A stretch of DNA of 64,000 nt. Origin: Candidatus Lindowbacteria bacterium RIFCSPLOWO2_12_FULL_62_27. GTDB taxonomy: Bacteria; Lindowbacteria; 2-12-FULL-62-27. This document shows, in pieces, positions 6,678-11,840 of the stretch; position 1 is the stretch's first letter; every line of letters starts with the position of its first letter. Made by a program: the position numbers and the translations under genes. The stretch lies in assembly GCA_001784175.1 (NCBI GenBank), contig MFPR01000026.1:62001-126000 (forward strand). Reading direction: 5' to 3'. The notes under the pieces are model-generated. The model made no database searches, was not told where the DNA came from, and was given only the letters and a program-made list of their open reading frames with translations.

Positions 6678-7088
6678 TTACTTGACCTCCAAATAAGGCT
6701 TCAGCTTCTCAAACTTTTTCTCGCCAATCCCCTTGATCTTGCGGATGCCCTCGATGTCCTTGAAGGGCCCGTTGGCTTCGCGGTAGTCGATGATTTCCTG
6801 AGCTTTTTTCTCGCCGATGCCCGGGAGTTGGGTCAGCTCCTCGACCGACGCCGTATTGATGTTGATCTTGCCCTCCGGCGCCTCCTTCTTCGACGAGTGG
6901 CGGCCCTTCTTGCCGCCTTTTTCCGATTCCTCGCCGGTGGGTTCGGCCGTTTCCTCCGGGGTGCTTTCCGGCGCGGCGGAGACTTCGGCCGATTCCGTCA
7001 TCGGCGCCATCTCCTCCGTTTTCTTGCCGCATCCCCACAGAAGCAGTACCCCAACGAGGCCAAAGGACAGAAATGAAAATCGATGCAT
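6678..7088 (-). CDS. ComEA-like HhH DNA-binding lipoprotein
   Basis: This is a 136-aa exported protein. The N-terminus [20 protein letters not shown] looks like a lipoprotein signal with Cys20 as acylation site (Trp at -2 is unusual). An acidic, low-complexity spacer (residues 22-72) follows, then one ComEA-type helix-hairpin-helix pair at 74-136: [19 protein letters not shown] and [19 protein letters not shown]. In transformable bacteria this module binds incoming double-stranded DNA in the periplasm. The ATG at 7088 has AAAGGAG at ideal spacing; upstream in-frame starts lie inside the preceding gene. It is the last gene of the comEC operon, 25 nt after the MBL gene. Membrane anchoring by lipid rather than by a protein helix is inferred. 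Confidence 0.88.
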
Positions 7089-7113: not shown

Positions 7114-8157
7114 TTACAATCTCGACGGCTCCACACGATAGCTTTTTCCGTCCGAAAACACAAAGATGGTTCCCTGTTCGTCCGTGCGGTATATCTTGGC
7201 GCCGATTTTCTCGAGCCTCTCGAGCGGCGCGGCGTGGGGGTGGCCGAAGGTATTGTAGGAACCGACCGAGATGACGGCGGCCTCAGGCCGGACCTGGTTC
7301 AGAAAGACCGGCGTGGACGACGTCTTGCTGCCGTGATGCCCGACTTTCAGGATGTCCGACTTGAGGGTTTGCCCCCAGCGGAGCGCGCAGGTTTTCTCCG
7401 CGTCTTTTTCGGCGTCGCCGGTAAATAGAAAGGAAACGCGGCCGTAGATGAGCTTGAGCACGATCGACGAGTTGTTGGCGTCCTCGGCGTTCGGATCGCC
7501 GCAGAGGACGTAGGCGGAAATTTCTGGCCCGAGATCGAGTTTGTGCGGGAGCTGGCCGGGTTGCGGCGCGAAGACGGGGATTTTGCGGCGTTCGGCGGTT
7601 TTGAGGAGTTTTTTGTTGGACACGGTGGAGTAGATGAACCCGGAAATCCAGAGCTGGCCGACGGTGATGTGGCGGTCACCGATGACTTCGTACATGGAAC
7701 CCATGTGGTCGCTGTGGGGATGCGAGGCCATCACAATGTCGAGGTGGCGGACGCCGATCTGCTGGAGAAAGGGGAGGATGATCCGGGACCCGGCGTCGAT
7801 CATTTTGAGGTACCGGCTGTCCGGCGTTTTGCCTTCGCCGCTGTCGATCAGGACGTTTTTGCCGTTGGGCGTCTGAATGAAAATGCCGTCCCCCTGGCCG
7901 ACATCGAAGTAGACAACGGCGAGTTCCCCGGGGCGTTTCCATGTGCCGACGCGCGTCGCGGACGGCATGCCGGCGGTGTGGCCGGCCGGCGCCGGTCCGG
8001 CCACGGACGGGAAATAGACGGGGATCGCGTGCATCCAAGCCGCCACCGCCAGGACCAGGAGCACACCCGCCGCCGCCCAGCCGGGCCATGTGACCGGCCG
8101 GTCTTCGGAGGTCGCCCGCCGGTATTTCGAGAACTTGTCTTCGGCCGGCCCACTCAT
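7114..8157 (-). CDS. Stand-alone ComEC-type MBL hydrolase, membrane-anchored
   Basis: This 347-aa protein has one N-terminal membrane span (residues 28-42) followed by a metallo-beta-lactamase fold, so the enzyme domain probably faces the periplasm. It corresponds to the C-terminal third of ComEC/Rec2. The family start [17 protein letters not shown] and IDSGEG are followed by the metal motif SHPHSDHMG (His146, His148, Asp150, His151), [10 protein letters not shown] and [10 protein letters not shown]. In ComEC this domain is proposed to degrade the non-transforming DNA strand. It overlaps the preceding double-HhH gene by 4 nt (ATGA), so it is probably translationally coupled. It is notable because the same domain in the neighbouring ComEC has lost its metal motif. 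Nuclease activity is inferred. Confidence 0.88.
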
Positions 8158-8888
8158 TCGTCGACGGTGATGAGGTCTTTGATCTTGTCGAATGTGCCCT
8201 GCCGGATTCCCTTGACCTGCATGATCTCCTCGATCGTTGCGAAGTCGCCGTGTTCAGTGCGGTATTCCACGATCCGTTCCGCCGTGGTCTTGCCGATGCT
8301 TGGCAGCGCATCCAGTTCCTTGACCGACGCCCTGTTGATGTTGATCGGCCCGTCGGTGGAGGAGGCGCCCGGGCCGCGCGGCTTGGACGATTTCTTCGCC
8401 GGCGCCGGATCGTCGCCCGACTCGCCCGGCTCGCGGAACGTGCAGTTGGTGATGTCGATGCGTACAAGGTCCTTGACGGCGTCGAATTTCGATGCGCCGC
8501 CGAATCCCTTCACGCTCTGGATGTCCTCGATCGTGCGGAAACACCCGAGCGCGTCGCGGGTCTTGATGATGTTCTTCGCCGTGCCTTCGCCGACGCCGGG
8601 CAGATGGGCGTCGATGAGTTCCTGGGCCGTGGCGTGATTGATGTCGAGTTTGAGGACCTCCTTGAGCGTCTGCTGTTCGTCCCCGCTGAGTACCTGGGGC
8701 GTCCAGTCGGACGACTGGATCGGCACGGCGTCTCCGCGAGCCTCGACCGGCCGGCCGGGATCGCCGGCGGAGGGAGACGCGGGGGCGGATCCGGCGCCGC
8801 CCATGAAAAAAGAGGGCACGGCGGCCAGCAGCGCGACGCCCAGCGCCCCGAGGACCCATTTTTGTTCCGAGGTGACCGTTACTTTCAT
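8154..8888 (-). CDS. comEA: ComEA-like membrane protein with two HhH domains
   Basis: This 244-aa protein has a membrane anchor at residues 11-29 and then two ComEA-type HhH pairs. The first, about 80-145, reads LDINHATAQELIDAHLPGVG and ends DLVRID. The second, about 180-244, reads ININRASVKELDALPSIGK and ends DLITVD. They are joined by a Pro/Ser/Lys linker. Two Cys residues near positions 116 and 149 flank the end of the first domain. Typical ComEA has one pair; a tandem could bind DNA more tightly. It starts immediately after the comEC stop codon and overlaps the MBL gene by 4 nt, which fixes its role as the periplasmic DNA receptor feeding ComEC. The symbol is assigned by domain and context. 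Confidence 0.87.
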   Translation of the reverse strand: MKVTVTSEQKWVLGALGVALLAAVPSFFMGGAGSAPASPSAGDPGRPVEARGDAVPIQSSDWTPQVLSGDEQQTLKEVLKLDINHATAQELIDAHLPGVGEGTAKNIIKTRDALGCFRTIEDIQSVKGFGGASKFDAVKDLVRIDITNCTFREPGESGDDPAPAKKSSKPRGPGASSTDGPININRASVKELDALPSIGKTTAERIVEYRTEHGDFATIEEIMQVKGIRQGTFDKIKDLITVDE

Positions 8889-11840
8889 TTACAGTGTTCT
8901 GCCCTTTAGGGTTTTGACCCCAAATTTTTTTCCGTCACTTTCAATGACGACGGCCCAGTCCCGGGACGTGTCGTACACGCGGTCGGCGCTGAACAGGTCC
9001 CGGTAATATGTCAGGGTTGCATCATATTCCGTTTTGGCCTCGTCGACAAGCGTTTTGGCCTCGCGGCTCATGCCGTAGAGCAGCTTGAAATTTCCCCCCT
9101 GGCACACGACCATCCCCGGCCGGATCGTCCGGCCGACAGCGGGCGCGCGCGCCGCGGGGGATCCGCCGTGATCCGGGATGAGGAGCGCGTCGGGATCGGC
9201 GCGTGACGCGCCGATCATCCGCGCGGCGAGCGATTCCAGCCCGTGCTCGGTGAGATCGCCGGTGAAGACGGCGTCGAATTCCCCGTACGAGACGACGATT
9301 GCGGCGCTTTGATCCTTGATATTTCCCCCCGAACGCTCCGGTCCCAGGAAGCTGATCCGAAACGGAAACGGCAGGGACCCATCCTCGATGTCCGCAACCC
9401 GAACGCCGGGCGCCGCTTGGATTCTCGGGACGCCGTGCCGGGCCATCGTGACGGAGAGTTGCGCGTACGCGTCGTAGAGCCGGCGGACGTGGGGTTTGTG
9501 TTTGGACGCGAGGAGCGCGGGATCGTTCAGATGTTCGAGAAAAATCCGGAATCCTTGCGCGGAATCGGTTGCGGCCGTTGACGAAAATGCCGCCCAATCA
9601 GGGATGGGCGCCGGATCGTAGAACCGCAGCACCTTGAACCCGTCGGCGATGGTCGCGAGTCCCTCCGAATGTTCAGGCCCGAGCGCCGAGAGGACGATAC
9701 CCCCCACGGTGGTGATGCCCTGCTTCAGCAGAAACGGCGCCAGAATTTTCTCACCGACGTTCGAACGCTTGTCCATCGAGTCCAAGCCTCCGTCCACAAG
9801 GTAAGTCCGCCCGGCCGGGTCCTGGATGGCGGCGGCGCTGCCGAAGGAGGTCGAGAAGAAGGTGATACGCAGAATTTTTGGCGGGATCGCGGGTGGCCGG
9901 CGGAGGCCCCCTGCCGTCAACCCTGCGGCCACTGCGAGGGCGAGAATGCCGAGCAGGATCGCGTTTCGCCGGATCACCGGGCTGGGAGGGTTCACTATAT
10001 ACTTATAGAATATATCCCTACCATATATATATAGCGCCTCATGCCAGACCATGAGTGCGACTGCGGCGTAATAGACGGCGAGCCGGCCAAGGGTCAGATT
10101 TTCTATGAAAGGGTATGGAAACCAGAGTGTTGAGAGATGCGCCACATAAAAAAAGACTTTGATGAGGCAGTCGTTCGCCGCGTTGATAATGAGCGCGATG
10201 AAAAGGCCGGGACCCGGAATCATCCCTACCAGCCCCGCCACGAGCCCAAGGGGAACAATCAATCCTGCCAGCGGAAGCGCCACCAGGTTGGCGACGGGGC
10301 TGGCAAGCGAGAGGCGGCCGAAATAATACGATGAGAGCGGAAAAATCATGCCGATCAGGACAGCGGCCTGCGCCGACACGCACAGCCGGACCAGAAGCGG
10401 CAGCCGCTCGTAGGAGCAGGTCGCCGCGAGGGCCGTGTCCGAGGCTTTGCGGCAGCACCACACAAATCCTCCGGCGAGGAACGCGAGCAGCGCGGCGAGT
10501 GCGCCCGGATTTGGAATCCGGTCATACAGCGGGTAGGAACCAAGCGCCAGAAGAAAGATCACGGACGCGGCCGCGTACAGGAAGGGCCATCCCCGGAGTC
10601 TGGCCAGCGCGCGGTTGATCGGCCAGGAAATGATCCCAATCGACAAAATGGCGGCGAAGGAAAGAGTGAAGGAGGGCTGGACGAGAAAGCGGGGATTCAC
10701 CATCAGAATGATCATGGCGGCCGAGGAGGCGGAGAAGATCAGCGAGGACTGGAAGGCGCCGGGGGCCAGGGCCATCAAGAAGATCGTGACCGAGCACATG
10801 ATGGTCGCCCGCATCCCGGACGGCGGCATGCCGGTGATGATCAGGAAAATGAACAGGACGAGAATGATGAGCGGCGCCTGGACGCGCAGCGGGAGGCGGA
10901 AGATGCTGAAGACGACCAGAAAGAGGCCGCTGATCAGCGTCACGTGCTGGCCCGACACGGCCAGAACGTGCGTGAGGCCTGCCACCCGGCACTCGTCGAG
11001 CACCCAGCGGTCGTGGCCCTGGAAGACGCACATGACGCCGTCCAGGGGCGCCCGCACGCCGAGCGTGACGCCGGCGAGAAAGGTCGACTGCGGATAGGGA
11101 ATGGTGCGGATGTAAACGGACAGAATTTTTTCCTTGATCGCGAGCGCCCACTCTTTCAGAAAAAAGCCTTCGCCCTGATCCAAAATTTCGACGGGCGGCG
11201 GCGATCCCCAGGAGACCGTGACGGTCTGCACGCCGAAGATGCCCTGGTCCGCGAGAAATTCGCGATAGGAAAATCCGTGCGGGTTGACCTCGCCCGGCGG
11301 GTTGAGCAGAGGCGCGTTGACGCGGATCCGCCATCCGTAGACAACGCTTCGGCTGTATTCCTCGTACAGTTCCCGGGCCGTGCGGCGGATGGCGACTTCG
11401 ACCAGCCCGCCGCTGACGTCCCGGAAATCGGTTCCCGGACCCTCCGGCTGGATGCGAATGGGGCTCAGCGTGAACGTCACGCGGTCGGCGGAGACTTCGG
11501 GGTCGCTGATCACCACGCCTTCGACGCTGGCCCGCCGGTCCCAGGAGTCGGAAACGAAATTGGAGACGTGACCCGGATCGTCCAACGTGACGCTCCGCGA
11601 GTACCGCGCCCATCCGAGAAAAAAAGTGGCGGCGCAGAGGATCAGGGTGGCCGCCACCACGGGCAGGCGGCCCCGCCGGGACCGGACATAGCCCCACATG
11701 GAGAGGAGAAAGAGGACAGCGAAACAGGCAAATGCCGCGCGGCTCTGGCCGGCGCCGAGCGGATGGAGTTCCCCGGCCGCGACGCCGGTCACGAATGCGA
11801 TCGCCTGGGCTGTCAGGCGCCGCATCCAGGATTCAGGCAT
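8889..11840 (-). CDS. comEC: ComEC/Rec2 DNA-uptake channel with degenerate MBL domain
   Basis: This 983-aa polytopic inner-membrane protein matches the three-part ComEC layout. An N-terminal DUF4131-like region occupies about residues 1-230. The competence domain (about 255-640) carries the signature LTHVLAVSGQHVTLISGL near residue 293 and IITGMPPSGMRATIMC. A C-terminal MBL-like domain starts near residue 670 with ITFFSTSFGSAAAIQDPAG. ComEC passes single-stranded DNA across the inner membrane during natural transformation. In the MBL-like domain the expected xSHPHxDHxxG reads LSALGPEHSEGL near residue 718, so most zinc ligands are missing; FTGDLTEHG and IPDHGGS remain. It overlaps the upstream 58-aa gene by one base (TAATG) and directly abuts the double-HhH gene downstream. 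The domain is probably non-catalytic and structural. Confidence 0.93.
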   Translation of the reverse strand: MPESWMRRLTAQAIAFVTGVAAGELHPLGAGQSRAAFACFAVLFLLSMWGYVRSRRGRLPVVAATLILCAATFFLGWARYSRSVTLDDPGHVSNFVSDSWDRRASVEGVVISDPEVSADRVTFTLSPIRIQPEGPGTDFRDVSGGLVEVAIRRTARELYEEYSRSVVYGWRIRVNAPLLNPPGEVNPHGFSYREFLADQGIFGVQTVTVSWGSPPPVEILDQGEGFFLKEWALAIKEKILSVYIRTIPYPQSTFLAGVTLGVRAPLDGVMCVFQGHDRWVLDECRVAGLTHVLAVSGQHVTLISGLFLVVFSIFRLPLRVQAPLIILVLFIFLIITGMPPSGMRATIMCSVTIFLMALAPGAFQSSLIFSASSAAMIILMVNPRFLVQPSFTLSFAAILSIGIISWPINRALARLRGWPFLYAAASVIFLLALGSYPLYDRIPNPGALAALLAFLAGGFVWCCRKASDTALAATCSYERLPLLVRLCVSAQAAVLIGMIFPLSSYYFGRLSLASPVANLVALPLAGLIVPLGLVAGLVGMIPGPGLFIALIINAANDCLIKVFFYVAHLSTLWFPYPFIENLTLGRLAVYYAAVALMVWHEALYIYGRDIFYKYIVNPPSPVIRRNAILLGILALAVAAGLTAGGLRRPPAIPPKILRITFFSTSFGSAAAIQDPAGRTYLVDGGLDSMDKRSNVGEKILAPFLLKQGITTVGGIVLSALGPEHSEGLATIADGFKVLRFYDPAPIPDWAAFSSTAATDSAQGFRIFLEHLNDPALLASKHKPHVRRLYDAYAQLSVTMARHGVPRIQAAPGVRVADIEDGSLPFPFRISFLGPERSGGNIKDQSAAIVVSYGEFDAVFTGDLTEHGLESLAARMIGASRADPDALLIPDHGGSPAARAPAVGRTIRPGMVVCQGGNFKLLYGMSREAKTLVDEAKTEYDATLTYYRDLFSADRVYDTSRDWAVVIESDGKKFGVKTLKGRTL

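Follow-up and report, generated by a model that had tools for sequence, protein, structure and literature searches.

What degrades the non-imported DNA strand when the nuclease domain of a ComEC channel has lost its metal ligands? The question is raised by an operon on the minus strand of a 64,000-nucleotide stretch of DNA (the window) from Candidatus Lindowbacteria bacterium RIFCSPLOWO2_12_FULL_62_27 (assembly GCA_001784175.1, 4.39 Mb in 44 contigs; contig MFPR01000026.1, positions 62,001 to 126,000). The operon encodes, in order, ComEC, a ComEA-like protein, a stand-alone metallo-β-lactamase (MBL) protein and a helix-hairpin-helix (HhH) lipoprotein (Table 1). The start of the ComEA-like gene directly abuts the ComEC stop codon and the start of the MBL gene overlaps the ComEA stop as ATGA, both junctions having been read on the sequence. 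In the published model of import, ComEC binds DNA through its oligonucleotide-binding (OB) fold, guides the strands by means of a two-phenylalanine loop and digests the 5' strand with its MBL domain (PMC12455585); a solved ComEC MBL domain, its manganese-dependent nuclease activity and the need for its residues in transformation have been reported (PMC8579336, PMC12455585). Many bacteria have a ComEC with no MBL domain of the characterized type, and their way of degrading the strand has been called an open question (PMC8579336). For the window we favor, with some confidence, the reading of a split-function DNA importer, in which the MBL protein acts as a nuclease in trans beside a ComEC with a dead domain.

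The C-terminal domain of the window ComEC

The window ComEC has a Competence domain (PF03772; 108 bits, cut-off 23) and an OB-type DUF4131 domain (70.5 bits, cut-off 31.6) by Pfam, and scores below the curated cut-off of TIGR00361 (86.6 vs. 190.05 bits). Pfam gave no Lactamase_B match in this protein; by profile, its C-terminal ~330 residues are an MBL fold, as a hidden Markov model of intact ComEC MBL domains matches them with 72.8 bits. Alignment of this domain with 16 stand-alone MBLs in hhalign (Prob 100, E 5e-44) placed the stretch LSALGPEHSEG on the HPHSDH position, and phmmer placed the same stretch opposite STHPDADHIGG of the solved ComEC MBL domain (9ic4). The initial annotation had read LSALGPEHSEG as a metal motif without most of its zinc ligands, and these alignments bear that out, the metal of the characterized enzyme being manganese rather than zinc (PMC8579336). 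In motif II, H1 is replaced by Ala, position 3 by Gly and D5 by Glu, with H6 retained; together with the motif IV Asp and the second His of motif V, this leaves three of the eight scored positions.

Two trivial explanations were rejected. Relocation of motif II within ComEC, with its ligands complete, was found nowhere when both MBL domains were aligned, and a scan of the whole protein returned neither the pattern H.[HDEQ].[DE]H nor H...[DE]H. A pseudogene or frameshift is at odds with the 983-residue open frame and with a dead motif common to three genera: the sequence G-P-E-H-S/T-E-G is repeated in both other Lindowbacteria genomes. Because the frame is open and the motif recurs, we do not regard the dead motif as a product of chance. 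The structure models of the dead domain and of the stand-alone MBL, built from two-row alignments only (the window plus L014, from contig 112 of genome G002), were both poor (mean pLDDT, the predicted local distance difference test, 51.3 and 44.9, respectively) and their details were not used; the top Foldseek match of the low-confidence dead-domain model was 9ic4 (E 1.1e-12), which we take as supporting evidence only.

The domain further differs from the solved enzyme in having a longer stretch, LYGMSREAKTLVDEAKTEYD, in place of N-F-G-H-P, with an outline common to the other two Lindowbacteria. We infer that N-F-G-H-P of 9ic4 is the two-phenylalanine guide loop, because it lies 27 residues from the HHGS serine, the distance between the published S662 and F689. 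The stand-alone MBL of the window has a Phe at the same 27-residue count (TFGHP).

The stand-alone MBL

The protein encoded two genes downstream of ComEC had been singled out in the initial annotation, whose coordinates and motif readings proved correct, as membrane-anchored with an intact SHPHSDHMG. It does have a hydrophobic segment, and every metal-binding motif is present (DVGQGD, HPHSDH, NNSS, TGD, HHGS, and FGHP). It matches Lactamase_B with 53 bits (Pfam), the solved ComEC MBL domain 9ic4 with E 1.7e-45 and the full-length ComEC 30bt with E 1.3e-41. The hydrophobic segment spans approximately residues 29–47 and is preceded by five Lys/Arg residues, with none in the 15 residues that follow; by the usual charge rule, this anchor and its flanking charges suggest that the enzyme lies outside the cytoplasm. 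The MBL domain of ComEC is reported on that same side of the cytoplasmic membrane (PMC8579336).

It is highly improbable that the protein instead works against phages, as an effector akin to Avs1a, 6A-MBL, or LmuA. It does match these families (6A-MBL, 47.5 bits; Avs1a, 37.3; by PADLOC, LmuA 65.9 and Avs1a 37.6), but the scores are far below the curated cut-offs (220 for 6A-MBL and 420 for Avs1a), its partners are ComEC and ComEA, and its anchor suggests an extracytoplasmic place. Nor did it emerge as a homolog of the nuclease EndA: only Lactamase_B families matched the protein, the genome at large not having been searched for EndA. In two other genomes an MBL and HhH pairs are fused in one protein (L071:157-1473 of G020, with one HHH_3 stretch, and L083:4501-6588 of G243, with four), fusions which suggest that MBLs of this kind act on DNA.

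Conservation in Lindowbacteria

A dead-domain ComEC paired with a stand-alone MBL was present in all three Lindowbacteria genomes examined. Between genera, identity within the same operons is 65–72% for the MBL domain, 52–60% for the channel and 39–43% for the dead domain, with ComEA at 50–51% (window vs. the other two), making the stand-alone MBL the most conserved of the operon proteins compared. The window genome (G000) encodes four Competence proteins: three are long with degenerate MBL domains (contigs 26, 33, and 28), and the fourth, of 696 residues (contig 2), consists of a Competence domain only. All three Lindowbacteria also have a second stand-alone MBL, extended at its C terminus by ~180 residues (L015:7174-8661, on G000 contig 28; L037:4024-5904; L038:233-1765), and no ComEC was seen in the stretch read around it.

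A clade of long ComECs

Searching 290 genomes with a profile of 17 long ComECs separated 16 genomes, from 11 family codes, that scored at least 319 bits (the lowest match being a fragment) from all others, at 301 bits or less; as two candidates per genome were scored, copy numbers per genome are lower bounds. In a tree computed without the dead domain, the 17 long ComECs, that of the window included, were monophyletic relative to 41 others (Shimodaira-Hasegawa-like approximate likelihood ratio test, SH-aLRT, 100). Motif II was degenerate in all 20 of the C-terminal domains scored: the first His was kept in one, the Asp in one and the second His in six, and the motif IV Asp and second motif V His persisted in 15 and 14, respectively. 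These sequence comparisons support the conclusion that throughout one clade the MBL fold of ComEC has been kept and its active site lost. One member, that of G233 (L076:3760-7080), appears by eye to have an HhH-like stretch inserted within the channel region (alignment columns 700–770).

A domain with three of eight positions left and with Glu at D5 raises the question of whether it could still be a weak or altered one-metal enzyme that uses this Glu, the His at H6, the motif IV Asp and the motif V His, and comparable doubt has been raised for Streptococcus pneumoniae (PMC8579336). We think this very unlikely. Fourteen of the 20 members retain only 0–2 of the eight positions, the first motif II His survives in a single one, and the Moorella glycerini enzyme is reported to be virtually inactive with Ala at most single ligands, D600A excepted (PMC12455585).

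For comparison we scored 58 control ComECs, a non-random set chosen by us from the list of ComECs: 60 control loci, minus G066 (which belongs to the long clade), L102 (no usable open reading frame) and L148 (a stand-alone MBL), plus G095, and including three second ComECs of long-clade genomes (L145-L147). All four motif II positions were present in 37 of these, three in five and two or fewer in 16, the last comprising five with a clear MBL domain (83–136 bits), three with a weak match (27–37 bits) and eight with none or almost none. The idea that dead domains are unique to the long clade was rejected, as five control ComECs are degenerate independently; dead domains also arise elsewhere, but the long clade is, by its sequences, uniformly dead.

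The phylum of genome G120, in which 14 of 39 genomes have a long ComEC, provided a further test. All 11 scorable loci combine a degenerate domain with a downstream gene having an intact H-x-H-x-D-H motif, ten of them being new tests, as in G120 itself the pattern was already known; the other three loci had no C-terminal domain in the available stretch, and two of the MBL genes break off ahead of motif V. The dead motif of this phylum reads LPER[IV]SG, and S-aromatic-R-x-P is retained there. Because the dead motif is conserved, the dead domain may be under constraint, which suggests that it still has a job.

Co-occurrence and origin of the stand-alone MBL

A stand-alone MBL with an intact motif was identified in 15 of the 16 long-ComEC genomes, one of which (G210) has an MBL gene that begins at a contig edge and may belong to a broken gene; any stand-alone MBL was identified in 17 of the 274 others (Fisher p 2e-15). 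Counted per family code, the figures were 10 of 11 vs. 12 of 212 (p 1e-10). For this search the window MBL was the query (E up to 1e-30), stand-alone status was judged from frame lengths, and motifs were checked in the long-clade genomes but in only some of the other 17. These 17 include G207, with its split ComEC, and G197 and G199 were excluded because their MBL is on a contig-broken ComEC. The MBL gene lies in the neighborhood of the long ComEC in 11 of the 16 genomes, intact in six (G000, G001, G002, G078, G233, and G120), the rest being G020, G167 (on the contig carrying the end of ComEC), G073, G214, and G066.

The initial annotation proposed that the activity may have been transferred from ComEC to a separate subunit, leaving the ComEC copy structural. 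That a separate subunit now performs it gains from the dead fold being clade-wide, from the intact MBL of the same operon being the most conserved protein and from the strong co-occurrence; a literal transfer is disfavored by our trees, which were quick, are weakly supported at many branches and raised long-branch warnings. Because the stand-alone MBLs group there among the live MBLs, apart from the dead domains, the enzyme appears to be an independent MBL that assumed this role, and an origin as a fragment split off this ComEC is not favored.

A proposed split-function importer and its alternatives

We propose the following division of labor, building on the degenerate and intact sites, the gene order, the recurrence in distant lineages and the stronger conservation of the MBL. 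The HhH proteins (ComEA and the lipoprotein) would hold double-stranded DNA in the periplasm. ComEC would provide the OB fold, the channel and, at the channel mouth, a catalytically dead MBL fold as a structural guide. The membrane-anchored MBL, predicted to be a nuclease, to dock onto ComEC and to choose between the strands, would degrade the non-imported strand in trans on the same side of the membrane.

Several observations weigh against this proposal. The co-occurrence query, being the window MBL, favors its own kin, and counting by family only partly removes relatedness. The operonic MBL is itself degenerate in G020, G167, G073, and G214, genomes that have other intact MBL copies elsewhere, and in G066 (L089:8771-9658) an in-frame internal deletion, either a real loss or an assembly error, removes motif II. 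No MBL was seen adjoining the long ComEC in G134, G271, G243, G069, and G210, with contig ends limiting the view in G271 and G210. Loss is also not always compensated: in the control ComECs L094, L095, L100, L101, and L103 the MBL domain is clearly degenerate, and their genomes yielded no stand-alone MBL at 1e-30. Lastly, 14 of the 16 long-ComEC genomes (all except G243 and G066) have a second Competence-domain protein, which in at least four lacks an MBL domain and is a possible true client of the enzyme. In G020 the degenerate operonic copy falls into one group with that genome's intact copies and the window MBL (support 98), so in this genome the operonic copy decayed while a duplicate remained intact.

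These second Competence proteins, together with the Competence-only ComEC of the window genome and the second MBL that lies away from any ComEC in all three Lindowbacteria, would also fit an MBL with a general nuclease role in the periplasm or one working for the MBL-less ComEC, the long ComEC then being a neofunctionalized paralog without strand degradation. We consider this rather unlikely: the gene order and the overlapping and adjoining starts link the MBL to the long ComEC, and the pairing is repeated in other lineages.

A different concern arises from the genes encoding PD-(D/E)XK nucleases that adjoin 8 of 20 long ComECs (Pfam) and from UvrD-type genes, which lie near the operon in G020 and G214 and adjoin the MBL-HhH gene in G243. 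With several ComECs per genome, these could mean that the long ComEC serves something other than transformation and belongs to another DNA-handling system (using DNA as food, for example), possibly with a different substrate for the MBL. That seems quite improbable to us, as the operonic ComEA-type HhH proteins and the presence of DprA in all 16 long-ComEC genomes fit DNA uptake and processing, and nothing indicates a different function. Returning to the split importer, we also raise, tentatively, the possibility that a range of rare lineages have a second dedicated DNA-import machine beside an ordinary ComEC. It would comprise the long dead-domain ComEC, the MBL in trans and HhH receptors, joined in some by two components that would act on the inside, processing or pulling the strand: a PD-(D/E)XK nuclease and a UvrD-type helicase.

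Relation to known systems

The closest parallel is S. pneumoniae, whose ComEC has an MBL domain with replaced metal ligands; there the non-transforming strand is degraded by EndA, a separate membrane-bound nuclease (PMC5031224, PMC8579336, PMC12455585). Unlike in that pair, the outside enzyme of the window belongs to the dead domain's own family and is encoded in the same operon. EndA is not known to be an MBL. The window ComEC shares the OB fold, Competence channel and C-terminal MBL fold of canonical three-domain ComECs (Bacillus subtilis, Moorella; PDB 9ic4, 30bt), but has lost the active site, has the longer stretch in place of N-F-G-H-P and falls far under the TIGR00361 cut-off. ComECs without an MBL domain, reported for example in Deinococcaceae and Helicobacter (PMC6299819, PMC5031224), likewise form a channel without an active nuclease of its own, whereas the window ComEC keeps the dead fold and a ComEC-type MBL comes from another gene. 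Genome G207 has a split ComEC, with a 527-residue ComEC followed by an overlapping, intact 292-residue MBL gene, but no dead domain remains in it; it branches beside the long clade with weak support (83).

Judged from sequence, what appears to be new is an entire dead-domain clade with a putative partner of the same family in the same operon, a ComEC-type MBL predicted to act in trans. In the open-license literature we found no description of a stand-alone MBL serving as partner to ComEC, which is not proof of absence. A ComEC-family MBL beside a dead-domain ComEC would give a concrete, testable answer on strand degradation for one large group, and would represent a natural separation of the structural and catalytic parts of the channel that is amenable to study in vitro.

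Feature coordinates and neighboring genes

The ComEA-like protein scores above the cut-off of the paired-HhH model TIGR00426 (105.8 vs. 53.1 bits) and below that of the comE model TIGR01259 (114.4 vs. 152.35 bits).

Table 1. Coordinates of the window operon and of nuclease and helicase genes near long ComECs or MBL-HhH genes.
Feature	Position	Strand	Basis
Long ComEC, 983 aa: OB/DUF4131, Competence channel, degenerate C-terminal MBL domain	8889-11840	-	Pfam
Degenerate MBL domain of ComEC, residues 656-983	8892-9875	-	HMM, hhalign, Foldseek
Dead motif II LSALGPEHSEG, first residue 717 of ComEC	9660-9692	-	
ComEA-like protein, two HhH pairs, N-terminal hydrophobic segment (by eye)	8154-8888	-	HHH_3 (two stretches); TIGR00426
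Stand-alone membrane-anchored MBL, 347 aa, complete metal motifs	7114-8157	-	Lactamase_B; 9ic4 match
Intact motif SHPHSDHMG, first residue 145 of stand-alone MBL	7699-7725	-	
HhH lipoprotein, 136 aa from ATG at 7088 (likely start), lipobox-like LLWGC (by eye)	6678-7088	-	HHH_3, 88.6 bits
PD-(D/E)XK genes, partly Cas4-like, two matched stretches each	L007:1717-3447 (G000 contig 33), L008:2053-5472 (G000 contig 28), L039:1403-3139, L040:54-3635, L075:8264-9919, L076:7310-8932, L080:7441-9195, L081:5262-7001		PF12705
UvrD-type helicase genes of other lineages, close to a long ComEC or an MBL-HhH gene	L069:10203-12419, L081:2502-4226, L083:2285-4255, L036:6143-8380 (last by eye)		

In genome G001 the place of the window's HhH lipoprotein, 3' of the MBL gene, is taken by a protein kinase whose C terminus carries an HhH pair (L035:929-2152).

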